Source of the DNA: Leucobacter soli
Lineage (GTDB): Bacteria > Actinomycetota > Actinomycetes > Actinomycetales > Microbacteriaceae
Direction: 5' to 3'
DNA: 64,000 bases
NCBI RefSeq assembly: GCF_910593785.1
Contig: NZ_CAJVAP010000005.1
Location: forward strand, 62,001-126,000
The notes under the pieces are model-generated. The model worked only from the letters and a program-made list of their open reading frames with translations. It was not told where the DNA came from and searched no databases. The position numbers and the translations under genes were made by a program. Shown one piece after another: positions 46,793 through 51,997 of the stretch. Numbering within the stretch: position 1 is the stretch's first letter; every line of letters starts with the position of its first letter.

Positions 46793-46860
46793 GCGCAGCG
46801 GGCCTGCCCGTTCCTCCGAAGATCCGGCATTGCGGCCGAAGGTTATCCGACTGTGCTGTT

Positions 46861-46907
46861 CCGAGCCGGTGCCGGATCGCCCCTGCAGCGATCCGGCACC
46901 GGCTCGG
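46861..46907. repeat. Perfect 20-bp-stem hairpin in a divergent intergenic region
   Basis: CCGAGCCGGTGCCGGATCGC and its exact complement enclose the 7-nt loop CCCTGCA. A second small palindrome (CGAGAAGTTCTTCTCG) follows within 20 nt. The genes on both sides point away from it, so it is not a normal 3' terminator. It may shield the promoter of the DGPF/sigma unit from read-through or mark a small RNA. Confidence 0.75.
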
Positions 46908-46935
46908 GGCGCCGCGAGAAGTTCTTCTCGGCTCG

Positions 46936-46962
46936 TGTCGATTCCGCTCCGAGCCGTTCGAC
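46936..46962 (+). promoter_or_regulatory. Predicted ECF42-type promoter (TGTCGA -35, CGAC -10)
   Basis: TGTCGA (46936-46941) is followed after exactly 17 nt by CGAC (46959-46962). Characterised ECF42 targets have TGTCGA at -35 and CGA(T/C)-like -10 elements in front of DGPF-protein genes. The gene downstream is a DGPF-type protein and the next one is an ECF42-like sigma factor, so autoregulation is predicted. Confidence 0.55.
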
Positions 46963-47012
46963 GTCATAGTAGGAGAGTGCAGAGGGCACTCCCGGAACAA
47001 GGAGATGAAGAG

Positions 47013-47432
47013 ATGAAGCACATGCTGATCATGCGGGCAACGCAGGCGGCGATCGACGCCTCGAAGGAGATGGACTTCGAGCAGATCCTGAACGAGATGG
47101 GCGCCTACAACGAGCAGTTGATGCAGGCCGGCGTCATGGTCGCCGGCGAGGGCCTCGCCGACGAGCCCGGCTATCTGGTCGAGTTCGGCGGCGAAACGCC
47201 GGTGGTGAGCGACGGGCCGTACGGAGAGGTGCACGAGCTCTTCAACGGCTTCTGGATCCTGCAGACGGCGACCGCCGAGGAGGCCGTCGAGTGGGCGAAG
47301 CGATGCCCGCTCGGCCCGGGCAGCACGCTCGAGGTGCGTCGCGTGCACGACGAAAACGATCTCGCGGAGTTCGCCGACAACGAGTACATCAAGAAGGAGG
47401 CCGGCTGGCGCGAGGAGCTCGGAACCGACTGA
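47013..47432 (+). CDS. DGPF-domain / YciI-related protein
   Basis: 139 aa. The motif SDGPYGEVHELFNGFWIL is the DGPF signature (Tyr replaces Phe) of YCII-related proteins that accompany ECF42 sigma factors. The small alpha-beta barrel fold has no known enzymatic activity. ATG 47013 follows AAGGAG. Its stop shares one base with the sigma factor ATG, so both are co-translated. Confidence 0.87.
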   Translation: MKHMLIMRATQAAIDASKEMDFEQILNEMGAYNEQLMQAGVMVAGEGLADEPGYLVEFGGETPVVSDGPYGEVHELFNGFWILQTATAEEAVEWAKRCPLGPGSTLEVRRVHDENDLAEFADNEYIKKEAGWREELGTD

Positions 47433-48682
47433 TGCCCGCCGACGTCGCCCGCGCGGTCGAGGCTGTCTGGCGCATCGAGGGCCGGCGCATCGTCGCTGCG
47501 CTTGCCCGGATGGCCGGCGACTTCGGCCTTGCGGAGGACGTCGCCCAGGAGGCGCTGGCCGAAGCGCTCGGCTCGTGGCCCGGACAGGGCGTGCCGCAGA
47601 ACGCCGGTGCTTGGCTCACCGCCGTGGCGAAGCGCCGGCTCATCGACGGCTGGCGGCGGCGCGGGCGCCTCGATGAGCGTTACGCGCAGCTCGCGCACGA
47701 GATGGGGGATACGTCGGATCTCGCTTGGGAGCCGATCGAGGACGACCTGCTCCGCCTCGTGTTCACCGCCTGCCACCCGGTGCTGTCGCGCGAATCGCAA
47801 ATCGCGCTCACGCTGCGGGTGGTCGGCGGCCTGACCTCGCAGGAGATCGCGCGGATGCTGATGGTGCCAGTCGCGACGGTTCAGGCGAGGATCACCCGGG
47901 CGAAGAAGACGCTGGCCGCGGCGAACGTGCCGTTCGCGACGCCGGATCCGCCGGAGTGGCCGGCACGTCTCGTCGGCGTGCTCGGGGTGATCTACCTGAT
48001 CTTCACGGAGGGGTATGCGGCGACCGCGGGGGAGCGGGGAATACGCCCGGACCTCGCCGACGAGGCGCTGCGACTCGGTCGCATGCTGCGCGGAATCGTG
48101 CCGCGAGAGCCCGAGGCGCACGCGCTGGTCGCCCTCATGGAGCTGCAGCGCTCGCGCTTCGCCGCGCGCGAGTCTCCGGGCGGCGGGCCGGTGCTGCTGG
48201 ACGAGCAGGATCGCTCGCGCTGGGATCGCGGTCAGATCGCTCGGGGCAGCGCCGTGCTGCGAGAAGCCGAGCGGTGCGCTCGAGCCAGGGGTCGAGGCAA
48301 CGGGCCGTACGCACTGCAGGCCGCCATCGCCGAGTGCCATTGCCGAGCCGTAAGCGTCGACGACACGGACTGGGAGGGGATCGTTCTGCTGTACGAAGCG
48401 CTCTGCCGGATCGCGCCGAACCCGATGGCCGACCTCGCACGTGCAGTCGCGGTCTCGATGTCCACGGGCCCCGCGACCGCTCTGCGCATCGTCGACGAGA
48501 TCGCCGCCTCGGGGCGACTCCGAGGCTCCGCCGCGTTGCCGGGCGTACGAGGCGAACTGCTGACCCGGCTTGGACGAACGGATGAAGCGCGTTCTGCGCT
48601 CTCGGCCGCCGCGGCGCTTGCGACGAACGACGCGCAGCGGAGCGTGTTCGAGCGGAAGCTCGCGCGGCTGACCGAGCGCTAG
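47432..48682 (+). CDS. ECF sigma factor, ECF42-like, with C-terminal TPR-like extension
   Basis: 416 aa. Sigma-70 region 2 (about 15-80, FGLAEDVAQEALAEAL and LIDGWRRR) and region 4 (about 120-165, LTSQEIARMLMVPVATVQAR) are followed by a 240-residue helical domain (DUF6596/TPR type, RPDLADEALRLGRML). This layout, and the adjacent DGPF gene instead of an anti-sigma factor, defines the ECF42 group, where the C-terminal domain is thought to control activity. ATG 47432 overlaps the upstream stop. Confidence 0.9.
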   Translation: MPADVARAVEAVWRIEGRRIVAALARMAGDFGLAEDVAQEALAEALGSWPGQGVPQNAGAWLTAVAKRRLIDGWRRRGRLDERYAQLAHEMGDTSDLAWEPIEDDLLRLVFTACHPVLSRESQIALTLRVVGGLTSQEIARMLMVPVATVQARITRAKKTLAAANVPFATPDPPEWPARLVGVLGVIYLIFTEGYAATAGERGIRPDLADEALRLGRMLRGIVPREPEAHALVALMELQRSRFAARESPGGGPVLLDEQDRSRWDRGQIARGSAVLREAERCARARGRGNGPYALQAAIAECHCRAVSVDDTDWEGIVLLYEALCRIAPNPMADLARAVAVSMSTGPATALRIVDEIAASGRLRGSAALPGVRGELLTRLGRTDEARSALSAAAALATNDAQRSVFERKLARLTER

Positions 48683-48710
48683 CCCCTGCCGCCCGGGAAA
48701 GTCCGCTTGC

Positions 48711-48716
48711 TACGCT
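48711..48716 (+). promoter_or_regulatory. -10 hexamer TACGCT of tag (leaderless)
   Basis: TACGCT ends 8 nt before GTG 48724. Confidence 0.55.
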
Positions 48717-48723
48717 GGCCCTC

Positions 48724-49305
48724 GTGAGCGCTATCGTGACCGGGCCCGACGGGATCCGCCGCTGCGCGTGGGTCGGCGACGATCAGGAGTACCGGCGCTA
48801 CCACGACGAGGAGTGGGGTGTTCCGCTGCGCGGCGACCACGTGCTGTTCGAGAAGATGGCGCTGGAAGGGTTCCAGGCGGGATTGTCCTGGATCACGATC
48901 CTGCGCAAGCGACCGCGGTTCCGCGAGGCGTTCGAAGGCTTCGATCCGGCGCGGGTCGCCGGCTTCGGCCCGGCGGACGTCGAGAGGCTGCTGGGGGATG
49001 CCGGCATCATCCGCAACCGTGCGAAGATCGAGGCGACGATCTCCAACGCGGCGCTGGTGCGGGACATGGCAGACGGTGAGCTCGATGAGCTGATGTGGTC
49101 GTTCGCACCGGGCGGATCCGCGGGGGAGCGGGCGCGCCCGGTCGCCATGGACGAGGTGCCCGCCGTGACATCGGAGTCGACGGCGCTGAGCAGGGAACTG
49201 CGCAAGCGCGGCTTCCGCTTCGTCGGCCCGACCACCATGTACGCGCTGATGCAGTCGGCGGGCATGGTCGACGATCACTTGTTCGGATGCTGGAGGGTGA
49301 TGTGA
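48724..49305 (+). CDS. tag: DNA-3-methyladenine glycosylase I
   Basis: 193 aa base-excision repair enzyme that removes 3-methyladenine. The zinc ligands are placed as in the family: C14 and H27 near the N-terminus, H185 and C189 at the C-terminus. YHDEEWGVPL and ALEGFQAGLSW are signature segments. GTG start with a leaderless -10. Overlaps the following DUF1801 gene by 4 nt. Confidence 0.96.
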   Translation: MSAIVTGPDGIRRCAWVGDDQEYRRYHDEEWGVPLRGDHVLFEKMALEGFQAGLSWITILRKRPRFREAFEGFDPARVAGFGPADVERLLGDAGIIRNRAKIEATISNAALVRDMADGELDELMWSFAPGGSAGERARPVAMDEVPAVTSESTALSRELRKRGFRFVGPTTMYALMQSAGMVDDHLFGCWRVM

Positions 49306-49664
49306 GCATGCAGCCGAAGACGGTCGACGAGTATCTCGATGGTGTGGACGCCGAGCGTCGGGCCGAGCTCGAACGGATCCGCGTACTGGTGAAACGGCTG
49401 GTGCCGTCGGCCGAAGAGACGATGAGCTACGGCATGCCGACGCTCAAGCACGGGGGACTGGCGCTCGTCTACTTCACCGCTTCGAAGAAGCACAGGAGCC
49501 TCTTCCCGTCGTCGTGGGCGATCGATGAGCTGCGGGATGGGCTCGAGGGCCACACGACCACCCAGCATGCGATTCAGTTCACCCTCGAGAATCCTCTCGC
49601 CGACGATCTGCTCGAGGATATGGTGCGCGTTCACCCGCGAGAGAACGACGCCGGCAGGGAGTAG
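49302..49664 (+). CDS. DUF1801 (YdhG-like) protein
   Basis: 120 aa. DEYLDGVDAERRAELERIR, ETMSYGMPTLKHGG and YFTASKKHRSLFP are typical of the DUF1801/YdhG family, which has an iron-chaperone-like fold and no proven function. GTG 49302 has the ribosome site GGAGGG. ATG 49308 is an in-frame alternative. Coupled to tag. Confidence 0.88.
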   Translation: MSMQPKTVDEYLDGVDAERRAELERIRVLVKRLVPSAEETMSYGMPTLKHGGLALVYFTASKKHRSLFPSSWAIDELRDGLEGHTTTQHAIQFTLENPLADDLLEDMVRVHPRENDAGRE

Positions 49665-49792
49665 CTCCGGTGTCGATGCGCCGATAGCCTCGAGGCATGA
49701 GCCCTGGAGGCTCGGGGCTCGAGTTCGCCGAGTGACCGTGCACGGCCTCACCCGCCCGCCGGAGAGGGTTGGCCGCTCGCCGCGGTGTCGCC

Positions 49793-49798
49793 TAAAAT
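49793..49798 (+). promoter_or_regulatory. -10 hexamer TAAAAT of the second DUF1801 gene (leaderless)
   Basis: TAAAAT ends 7 nt before ATG 49805. Confidence 0.6.
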
Positions 49799-49804
49799 CG
49801 CGAC

Positions 49805-50212
49805 ATGGGCACGGTTCCCGACGACATCCGAGAGTTTCATGATCGGCTCGACGCCTCGGCGCGGCCGATATGCGATCTGCTGCTCACGACGATCGAACAG
49901 GAGCTGCCGGACGCCGAGCGGAAGGTGTGGCACGCCCACCCGGTGTGGTTCTTCGACGGCAACCCGGTCGTCGGATACAGCCGGCTGAAGTCTGCGGTGC
50001 GGCTGCTGTTCTGGAGCGGGCAGTCGTTCCGCGAATCGGGATTGAAGCCCGAAGGCACGTTCCAGGCGGCCGAAGCACGGTACACGGCGCCCGAGCAGGT
50101 CGACGTCGAAGCGGTGCGCCGCTGGCTCGCCGAAGCTCGAGACGTCCAGTGGAACTACCGCGACATCCGCCGGAATCGCGGCCTCGTTCCGCTTCGCGGC
50201 GTGGGGGAGTGA
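49805..50212 (+). CDS. DUF1801-type protein, second copy
   Basis: 135 aa. KVWHAHPVWFFDGNPVVGYS and VRLLFWSGQSF match the DUF1801 fold, but the protein is distant from the neighbouring copy at 49302, so this is not a recent duplication. It has its own leaderless promoter. Function unknown. Convergent with the DHFR-like gene. Confidence 0.82.
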   Translation: MGTVPDDIREFHDRLDASARPICDLLLTTIEQELPDAERKVWHAHPVWFFDGNPVVGYSRLKSAVRLLFWSGQSFRESGLKPEGTFQAAEARYTAPEQVDVEAVRRWLAEARDVQWNYRDIRRNRGLVPLRGVGE

Positions 50213-50240
50213 GTCGGGCCGCCTGAGCGGCGCGTGTGCG

Positions 50241-50810
50241 TCAGGCCGGAATCCGCGCGGATCGGTAGCGCAGGGCGATCGCGCCCGATCGGAACTCCTG
50301 GCGATCAACGAGCTCGAGCTGGATGCGCTCCCGCAGACCGGCGAGCAATGTCGGCCCGTGCCCCGCGAGCACCGGCTGCACGAGGAACTCGTACTCGTCG
50401 ATCAACCCCAGATCCGCCAGCGCACGGGGGAGCGTCACTCCGCCCACCCACAGGCGTTCGCCCGGCTGCTGCTTGAGCTGCCGAACCGCCTGCGCCACGT
50501 CGCCTCGCACCAGGTCGGCGTTCCAGTCGACTCCGCTCAGGGTGCTCGACACGACGTGCTTCTCCGCCCGGTCGATGGCTTCGGCGAACGGAATCTCCCA
50601 CTCTTCCATCCAGTCGGGCCAGACTCCGGTGTCCGGCTTCCGCCACGCCGACTCCATCATCTCGTAGGTCACCCGGCCGAAGAGCAGGGCATCGGCCTGC
50701 GCCATCTCATCGGTCCAGTAGCGCATCGAGTCCTCGTTCGGCGGGATCCCGGCCTCGTGGTGGCAGCAGCCGTCGAGCGTGGTGTTGATCGAGTAGCGGA
50801 GCTGTCTCAT
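50241..50810 (-). CDS. Dihydrofolate reductase family protein (RibD C-terminal-like)
   Basis: 189 aa. MRQLRYSINTTLDGCCHHE and LLFGRVTYEMMESAW are hallmarks of the YyaP/RibD-like DHFR superfamily, and LWVGGVTLPRALADLGLIDE is the nucleotide-binding segment. These are NADPH-dependent reductases of unknown substrate, not the housekeeping FolA. ATG 50810 has the ribosome site AAGGAG. Confidence 0.87.
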   Translation of the reverse strand: MRQLRYSINTTLDGCCHHEAGIPPNEDSMRYWTDEMAQADALLFGRVTYEMMESAWRKPDTGVWPDWMEEWEIPFAEAIDRAEKHVVSSTLSGVDWNADLVRGDVAQAVRQLKQQPGERLWVGGVTLPRALADLGLIDEYEFLVQPVLAGHGPTLLAGLRERIQLELVDRQEFRSGAIALRYRSARIPA

Positions 50811-51006
50811 CGCGTTCTCCTTCGAAGCGCGCCCGCGTTCGGCGAACTGCACTCAGGCTACAACCGCGACGCGCACGCTCACGTCTGACGAGGGAATCGC
50901 TCCGGTAGTCGGGGATCCTGACGTCGATCCGGGTGAGACTCCGACCCTCGACGACTTCCTGAGCTGAACGAGTCGTCGATGTGCTCCCGGTCTGGAATAG
51001 TGTATG

Positions 51007-51032
51007 CTGAATATGTTCAGTGAATGCATTCA
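51007..51032. promoter_or_regulatory. Two adjacent palindromes, probable TetR operator
   Basis: CTGAATATGTTCAG (51007-51020) is directly followed by the perfect 12-bp palindrome TGAATGCATTCA (51021-51032). Both share the TGAA/TTCA half-site and end 12 nt before the TetR start codon. A TATGCT hexamer (51003-51008) overlaps the first copy, so binding would block transcription. Confidence 0.65.
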
Positions 51033-51044
51033 GTCAGGATCTCC

Positions 51045-51641
51045 ATGAATGCCAGACGCGACGAACAGCGCCGCGAGACCGAAGCGAAGGTGCTGTCGGC
51101 TGCCGGCGAGCTCTTCCGTACCAGGGGGTTCGCGAACACCACCATCCGCGATATCGCCGTCGCCTGCGGGGTGAGCGTCGGCACCGTCGCCTCAGTGGGG
51201 GAGAAGGACGCCCTGCTCGTCGCCGTCTTCGATCGAGGCATCAAGGGAATCCACGAAGCGAACTTTCGCGGCGCCGAGGGGGTGCGGGGAGACTTGACCG
51301 AGCAGATCCTTCTGTTGCTGGATCCGTTCATCGAGATGTTCACCGCCGACGCCGCGCTGGCTCGGGCGTACGGCTCGGTGCTGGTCGCGGGGGAGCACGG
51401 CTCGATCGTCTTCTCCGACCTCTCGGGCCTGCTCGTCGGCGAGATCGAAACCGCAGTGCTGGGTGCAGAGGATCCGCCCGCCGCGGAGCAGGCCCGATCG
51501 CTGGCCGAGAGCATCTACTTCGCGTATATCGGGCGCCTCTTCAGCTGGCCGTCTGACGCAGCTACGAGTGCGGCCGACCTCAGGCGAAGCCTGCGTCGCA
51601 TCGTCGCGGCGATCTGTCGAGCAGGGGAGGCCTGGGCATGA
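51045..51641 (+). CDS. TetR/AcrR family transcriptional regulator
   Basis: 198 aa. The N-terminal HTH is ETEAKVLSAAGELFRTRGFA followed by TIRDIAVACGVSVGTVAS. ATG 51045 (ribosome site AGGATC) is preferred. ATG 51024 lies inside the operator. It overlaps the DoxX-like gene by 4 nt and probably represses this two-gene unit. The ligand is unknown. Confidence 0.87.
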   Translation: MNARRDEQRRETEAKVLSAAGELFRTRGFANTTIRDIAVACGVSVGTVASVGEKDALLVAVFDRGIKGIHEANFRGAEGVRGDLTEQILLLLDPFIEMFTADAALARAYGSVLVAGEHGSIVFSDLSGLLVGEIETAVLGAEDPPAAEQARSLAESIYFAYIGRLFSWPSDAATSAADLRRSLRRIVAAICRAGEAWA

Positions 51642-51997
51642 CCCTCATCGCCGACCCGTGGTGGCTGACCATGCCGCTGACTGCTGCGCTCCTGTTCGAT
51701 GCTGCTGCTTCGCTCAAGCCGCCGGCATTCATCCGCGATTGCCTCGACGGGGTGCGCTTTCCGCGCGAATGGTGGTGGGTGCTGATCGTCATCAAGACGC
51801 TTGCGGCTACGGGTCTGATTGTCGGCCTCTGGGTTCCGGGCGTCGGGCTCGCGGCGAACATTGGAGTGATCGTCTATTTCCTGTGCGCGGCGGCTTCCCA
51901 TCTCAGGGCGAAGTTCCTGACTCAGGCGTTCTGGCTGAACTGCCTCGGCATGCTTGCACTCTCGATCCTGACGCTCGTGTTCTCGTTCTTCGCCTAG
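51638..51997 (+). CDS. DoxX-like four-helix membrane protein
   Basis: 119 aa, four transmembrane helices. PLTAALLFDAAASLKPP and the LAATGLIVGLWVPGVGLAAN segment are DoxX-like. Functions reported for the superfamily relate to redox and oxidative stress, but none is proven for this type. It is coupled to the TetR gene by an ATGA overlap. Confidence 0.78.
   Translation: MTLIADPWWLTMPLTAALLFDAAASLKPPAFIRDCLDGVRFPREWWWVLIVIKTLAATGLIVGLWVPGVGLAANIGVIVYFLCAAASHLRAKFLTQAFWLNCLGMLALSILTLVFSFFA

Follow-up and report, generated by a model that had tools for sequence, protein, structure and literature searches.

An overlapping pair of genes in Leucobacter soli, encoding a DGPF/YCII-domain protein and an ECF sigma factor, probably constitutes an autoregulated ECF42/DGPF operon whose mRNA carries a stem-loop in its 5' leader. 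The pair lies within a contiguous stretch of 64,000 nucleotides, here called the window, and, judged by its sequence, it is an ordinary example of the known ECF42 sigma/DGPF module. The promoter is also of a known kind, while the conserved leader hairpin appears to be new: we found no mention of such a hairpin in the text on ECF42 factors that was examined, and this novelty is provisional, because the main S. venezuelae ECF42 paper lay outside the scope of that text. ECF42 is a widespread sigma group without known anti-sigma factors, and its signals and outputs are poorly known.

The gene pair and its products

The stop codon of the DGPF gene and the start codon of the sigma gene are shared in the sequence TGATG, in keeping with the translational coupling claimed in a preliminary description of this DNA, and the arrangement is kept in most loci of the clade. 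Of the 48 clade loci, counting the window's own, 47 were compared (L046 was omitted because of its frame); the genes of the pair overlap or abut in 32 of them and are no more than 50 nt apart in 44. Both would be transcribed as one operon from the promoter described below. Of the named relatives in the searched collection, the closest are from Microbacterium (68–69% identity). Pfam analysis of the neighbourhood genes identified a CDP-glycerol/glycosyltransferase, a Tag glycosylase and, downstream at 49164–51997, two DUF1801 genes, a RibD_C-like gene, TetR and DoxX_2, with no anti-sigma gene among the neighbours, as the preliminary description had maintained. Its portrayal of the module as self-contained also holds at the sequence level, since the 2.87-Mb draft genome has a single DUF6596 gene, the sigma gene of the window, and a single convincing match to the promoter and leader.

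The sigma protein contains Sigma70_r2, Sigma70_r4_2 and DUF6596 (PF20239, 119.2 bits) according to Pfam, and thus shows the domain combination of group ECF42, i.e. sigma2 and sigma4 without sigma3, followed by a C-terminal extension of ~200 residues. A predicted structure (mean pLDDT 93.4) agrees with the long C-terminal helical domain noted earlier: the extension is mainly helical, with helices from residue 173 on, and a large share of the chains that align with it have TPR folds (such as 7cc7, Z 14.3, rmsd 3.7, 201 residues), in a comparison where helical repeats score high generally. Foldseek returned no match for the sigma model at E ≤ 0.001. Taken together, the domains, the TPR-like extension, the DGPF neighbour, the promoter and the lack of an adjoining anti-sigma gene support the earlier assignment of this protein to ECF42. 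Among the residues invariant across 56 aligned ECF42 proteins are R242, R246, D260, R261, W264, H303, T312, W314 and Y321, all within residues 242–321 of the extension, which suggests a pocket or contact site. At one related locus (L154:2456-2980), an ECF42 gene with a promoter has apparently lost most of its sigma domains, keeping its start and part of DUF6596; this seems to be a deletion or an assembly fault.

The upstream product matches YCII (PF03795) with 54.9 bits (cut-off 24) and E 1.3e-14, and its structure model aligns with 1s7i (TMq 0.70, rmsd 2.3, 26% identity). The DGPF partner anticipated in the preliminary description was borne out in its YCII domain and its sigma neighbour; its eponymous motif reads DGPY in this clade and is invariant in all 47 aligned proteins (L046 dropped). 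With PA1349 (1s7i) and the YCII-related family it shares the fold and PF03795, and it differs from them in having DGPY instead of DGPF and a conserved tail of ~25 residues beyond the YCII domain (consensus DNEWI.KERAWRE.TGQL). In divergent loci, tblastn matches stop short of this tail.

Control over the activity of the sigma factor would lie in the TPR-like extension of the protein itself. The best candidate for a partner of this extension is the DGPF protein encoded alongside, presumably through direct contact, and the extra DGPF tail offers a natural candidate site for that predicted contact. A review proposes that the ECF42 extension is under protein-interaction control, with the conserved YCII protein named as one candidate (PMC8999054). 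The ECF42 sigmas of S. venezuelae (Sven_0747, Sven_4377, Sven_7131), P. putida (ECF-10) and S. meliloti (RpoE10) share with the present one the sigma2/sigma4 domains with a TPR-like extension, the YCII/DGPF neighbour, the lack of an anti-sigma gene, and the elements TGTCG (-35) and CG(A/T)C (-10). The window's system differs from these in its one copy, its one convincing promoter, the -10 context GTTCGAC and the leader hairpin, which the examined text on ECF42 does not mention. ECF41 sigmas are likewise one-component factors with a C-terminal extension and their own promoter, whereas their extension is SnoaL-like and their promoter reads TGTCACA.

Table 1. Features of the ECF42/DGPF locus, in coordinates of the window
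Feature	Position	Strand	Basis
-35 element TGTCGAT	46936..46942	+	GTCGAT (columns 2-7) invariant, first T ≥90%, 47 aligned loci including the window
-10 element GTTCGAC	46956..46962	+	TCGAC invariant in 47 aligned loci
Predicted transcription start (~ +/-2)	46971	+	inferred from S. meliloti SMc01149 spacing
5' leader hairpin GAGTGC-AGAGG-GCACTC	46975..46991	+	sequence, RNA fold, covariation in relatives
Shine-Dalgarno AGGAG, outside hairpin	47000..47004	+	sequence
DGPF/YCII-domain protein, 139 aa	47013..47432	+	PF03795 residues 1-113; alignment of 47; fold match 1s7i
ECF42 sigma factor, 416 aa: sigma2, sigma4, DUF6596, TPR-like C-terminal extension	47432..48682	+	Pfam and structure model

The promoter and its predicted transcript

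Upstream of the DGPF gene, at 46936–46962, lies TGTCGATTCCGCTCCGAGCCGTTCGAC, which comprises TGTCGA, 17 nt and CGAC, exactly the element to which the preliminary description had drawn attention. The ECF42 promoter is reportedly worded TGTCGA/CGA(T/C) by Liu et al. in 2018, and the site, with its -35 TGTCGA and -10 CGA(T/C) upstream of a DGPF gene, fits this definition, as had been claimed. Among 47 close relatives, 46 have it in the corresponding place, ~80 bp before the DGPF gene, and a site of TGTCGA-CGAC type was found at the DGPF gene in all 30 family loci picked by the DGPF protein alone (window included); conservation at the same place in both sets argues that the promoter site is real. 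In the promoter and leader alignments, which hold 47 of 48 loci including the window's own (L001; L042, with no promoter at its DGPF gene, was dropped), the length from -35 to -10 totals 27 nt in 39 loci and 28 nt in the remaining 8.

The loose motif alone proves nothing, since it occurs in the window no more often than chance allows (4 sites against 2.72 expected, with 27 of 100 shuffles reaching 4) and, as TGTCGA-N15-19-CGAY, 293 times in the genome. The genome scan proposed in the preliminary description would thus mislead if run with this motif (spacers 15–19), and we rejected it as a target finder, together with the pattern TGTCGATN{12,13}TTCGAC, whose wrong spacer misses the real site. 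The fuller form TGTCGAT-N13-GTTCGAC, unlike TGTCGA-N17-CGAC, is specific. We also built a model of promoter plus leader (R1) from 47 loci including this site. In this genome R1 matched the window site at 2.5e-11 and its next-best site at only 0.09, so there is no second convincing target, and it found no convincing ECF42-type promoter at the RibD_C, DUF1801 and DoxX_2 genes just downstream.

An A+T-rich patch 11–15 bp upstream of the -35 element (69% A+T vs 26–34% from -80 to -31) occupies the position where an UP element would sit. Further upstream, the region that separates the DGPF gene from the divergent glycosyltransferase gene holds a perfect inverted repeat of 20 bp around a loop of 7 nt (46861–46907), which ends 28 nt before the -35 element; the core of this repeat occurs once in the genome, and a weak, sub-threshold Rfam F6 match lies over it.

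In S. meliloti, the mapped start of SMc01149 lies 9 nt after CGTC (Table 1 of PMC6180224), and the same spacing predicts a start here near 46971, within the 6–10 nt after 46962 that the preliminary description had expected. The initial transcribed sequence is conserved across the 47 aligned loci, with the consensus GTGAGA. A leaderless start at a conserved RTG was also considered and discarded, its phase to the DGPF start being mixed (10, 17 and 11 of 38; 10 in frame and open).

The promoter is most likely read by the ECF42 sigma factor itself, and on this basis the operon is predicted to be positively autoregulated. That a different sigma factor uses this promoter-like site, or that the operon is not autoregulated, in the manner of S. 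meliloti rpoE10, strikes us as rather improbable. Overexpression of RpoE10 in S. meliloti did not raise its own operon, yet the authors of that study suggest that overlap of the motif with the start site could explain this failure (PMC6180224), and the same promoter stands before the sigma gene itself at two loci (L159, L168) and, in many genomes of the class, before operons of DGPF and sigma genes. Barely credible is a reading of TGTCGA...TCGAC as a palindromic operator and not a promoter: GTCGA and TCGAC are indeed reverse complements, but the second half is CGTC in several distant ECF42 loci, where the palindrome is broken and the spacing kept.

A conserved stem-loop in the predicted 5' leader

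A small conserved hairpin, missed in the preliminary description, probably stands at the very start of the mRNA that this promoter yields. It begins 12 nt after the -10 element and would fold from about +5 of the predicted transcript. The segment 46970–47015 folds at -12.1 kcal/mol (z -3.71), and the longer segment 46963–47060 has a z of -1.14. The hairpin arms vary between genera and mostly still pair. In a plain MAFFT alignment of the 47 loci, the covariation score was 0.277 vs 0.168 when shuffled (0/500), with all slid registers lower, and among 93 family leaders it rose to 0.507 vs 0.170 (0/500), with slid registers at ≤0.133 and 87.2% of cells paired. The latter leaders were found with R1 and their alignment was fitted to the model (G000 dropped from 94); 92 are distinct, one (L185) being identical to the model sequence L040 and another (L190) at least 80% like a model sequence. 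Double-sided changes at 6 of 6 pairs are not unusual in themselves, as they were reached by 83 (47 loci) and 51 (93 leaders) of 500 shuffles. An arm-swap test with flexible offset gave 25/47 vs a mean of 12.2 and a maximum of 20; with the offset fixed at 13, its result was only suggestive (17/39 vs a mean of 9.3 and a maximum of 17). When RNAalifold was applied to the MAFFT alignment of 47 rows, it returned no consensus structure, likely owing to register shifts of variable loops.

In alignment-free counts, a perfect stem of at least 5 bp in the expected position was present in 26 of 47 clade loci and 61 of 117 non-redundant leaders vs 39 of 363 background sites, and in 15 of the 30 protein-chosen loci, the other half being without one. 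The mean folding z was -1.44 in the 117 leaders, -0.04 upstream of the -35 element (n = 44), -0.41 in the coding region (n = 117) and -0.22 in 215 other leaders. Loops measured 5 nt in 72 of the 117 leaders, with A (55) or G (17) always in first place and mostly G (54) or A (12) in last place, while the middle is not conserved. No Rfam match covered the hairpin in 46800–49000 at E up to 1, and a search with 20 of the 93 family leaders gave none at E up to 0.1. Intrinsic termination and sequestration of the ribosome site were rejected as roles, because no U tract follows the stem and the Shine-Dalgarno sequence lies outside it.

The repeat might instead work as DNA, namely as a repressor operator just downstream of the start. 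Operators commonly sit at about +5 to +21, which is where the repeat lies, but its arms differ while pairing is kept beyond shuffles, and recognition by a DNA-binding protein would call for the letters themselves to be conserved. G-U cells, moreover, exceed A-C cells (30 vs 13 in the model-fitted alignment, 23 vs 17 in plain MAFFT), as for RNA of this strand. Given the covariation of the arms, a DNA operator is less likely, and we consider it very unlikely overall.

The stem does not extend evenly over ECF42 promoters. In divergent ECF42 loci, 12 of 33 of which had a promoter-like site, it was found at 7 of 12 such sites before YCII or sigma genes vs 4 of 77 other sites, and two of these background stems (L059, L062) are themselves R1 matches. 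Plasmid-borne cyanobacterial, alpha- and betaproteobacterial loci, in contrast, carried it at only 1 of 12 promoter-like sites. These came from 7 of 11 loci (L346–L349, L351–L353), the others being without a site (L345, L354) or without annotation (L344, L350); the Burkholderia locus L344 has a site with a 6-bp stem that was counted as background. In view of the plasmid-borne loci, we rejected the idea that all ECF42 promoters share the hairpin; ECF42 action as such does not require it, and it belongs to the actinobacterial form and to some other forms. SMb20475 of S. meliloti has a 9-bp stem, which would begin at +2 if the start is taken to be the last base in the table of the paper, and the complete leader shows no unusual stability (z -1.20; equalled by 24 of 200 shuffles). 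Of the 10 ECF41-type control sites, whose mean z was -0.49, 2 had a perfect stem of 5 bp or longer, a difference from the ECF42 leaders that is not significant with so few controls (Fisher p 0.096).

Where it occurs, the stem keeps a strict place. In the 70 of 93 family leaders whose stem has 5 pairs or more and whose start codon is no further than 80 nt away, the distance from loop centre to the -10 element has an sd of 1.66 nt, and that to the start codon an sd of 5.54; the hairpin keeps its place relative to the promoter and not relative to the start codon. This rigid distance, together with the conserved GTGAGA, would suit a role in transcription initiation or in early elongation, at promoter escape or at a pause close to the promoter, and not in mRNA decay. 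The hairpin is, however, mostly absent with the same sigma group elsewhere, and we regard such a role as unlikely, with an appreciable residual chance.

As part of the promoter-leader cassette in this actinobacterial branch, the stem-loop would most likely raise or steady mRNA output by hindering 5'-end-dependent decay and by freeing the downstream ribosome site of structure. The stability and insulation role, taken by itself, is a tentative view, to which we give slightly less than an even chance. The 5' stem-loop of DrrS of M. tuberculosis, downstream of the start, raised reporter expression threefold in M. smegmatis, and in DrrS at least 2 unpaired 5' nt destabilised the RNA (PMC5360333). 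About 4 unpaired 5' nt are predicted before the stem here, and 2–5 in relatives whose stems lie 10–13 nt from the -10 element, which weakens the stability reading. Like the protective stem-loops of DrrS and of the ompA, papA and aprE leaders, the hairpin is a short GC-rich structure near the 5' end; it differs from them in being tied to one sigma regulon, in covarying and in its predicted start at about +5, not +1.

Alternatively, the stem-loop could be a regulatory RNA site, bound by the DGPF protein or, close to the RNA exit channel, by the TPR-like extension of the sigma factor, and closing a feedback loop on the operon. Loops of 5 nt with a purine first and mostly a purine last would suit such a site, as would the conserved extra tail of the clade's DGPF protein and the presence of the hairpin at part of the other targets (a perfect stem of at least 5 bp at 8 of 26 non-DGPF targets, whose mean z is -1.15). 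Against this stand the unconserved loop middle and the absence of the hairpin from most proteobacterial and cyanobacterial ECF42 promoters examined, and we judge an RNA site to be of low probability. More specifically, the hairpin may be an integral output element of the ECF42 regulon in actinobacteria, read on the nascent transcript by the DGPF protein or by the TPR extension, which should sit near the RNA exit channel, as it follows sigma4. To this idea we attach only a slight probability; if true, the regulon would be marked twice, in promoter DNA and in 5' RNA structure, and the whole would act as a one-component sigma switch with feedback at the level of RNA. A conserved 5' RNA structure tied to the promoters of one sigma factor offers a clean test case for how an alternative sigma regulon sets mRNA stability.

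Distribution of the promoter-leader cassette

Among 299 genomes of the family, the DGPF protein was found in 107 and R1 in 103. Most R1 matches in the family (94 of 127) lie upstream of a DGPF homologue, 93 of them at 12–36 nt and one at 131 nt. Conversely, 26 of 120 DGPF matches have no adjoining R1, some of them being second tandem copies, and 11 family genomes have R1 with no DGPF match at E ≤ 1e-25. The 33 R1 matches away from DGPF genes include 26 before other recognisable targets, namely 11 RibD_C-like, 13 YCII-like and 2 ECF42 sigma genes; 11 of these targets were checked with Pfam (5 RibD_C, 4 YCII, 2 sigma) and for the other 15 the assignment rests on visual inspection of the N-termini. 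Not counted were the remaining 7, which comprise the truncated sigma gene of L154, an MFS gene (L166) and five uninterpretable loci (L174, L178–L181).

At the level of the class, R1 occurs in 116 of 296 genomes, and all 27 newly returned loci (L278–L304) encode DGPF next to the match. Outside the family, two matches precede DUF998 genes in actinobacteria (L015, L042). Within the genus of the window, by contrast, the cassette is found in only 1 of 7 genomes, its own, so the module is patchy there and was either gained or often lost.

The promoter-plus-hairpin signature is a far more specific target finder than the -35/-10 motif, and in one family it points to a coherent set consisting of DGPF/YCII proteins, RibD_C-like proteins and the sigma factor itself, with DUF998 proteins in two other actinobacteria. 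As to the gene types found downstream of the module in the window, RibD_C-like genes carry ECF42-type promoters in other genomes of the family, and a DoxX gene neighbours ECF42 in the plasmid-borne locus L351. At three cyanobacterial plasmid loci (L346, L347, L348), two tandem TGTCGAT...TTCGAC sites stand 81–96 bp apart upstream of a YciI gene that is divergent from the sigma gene.
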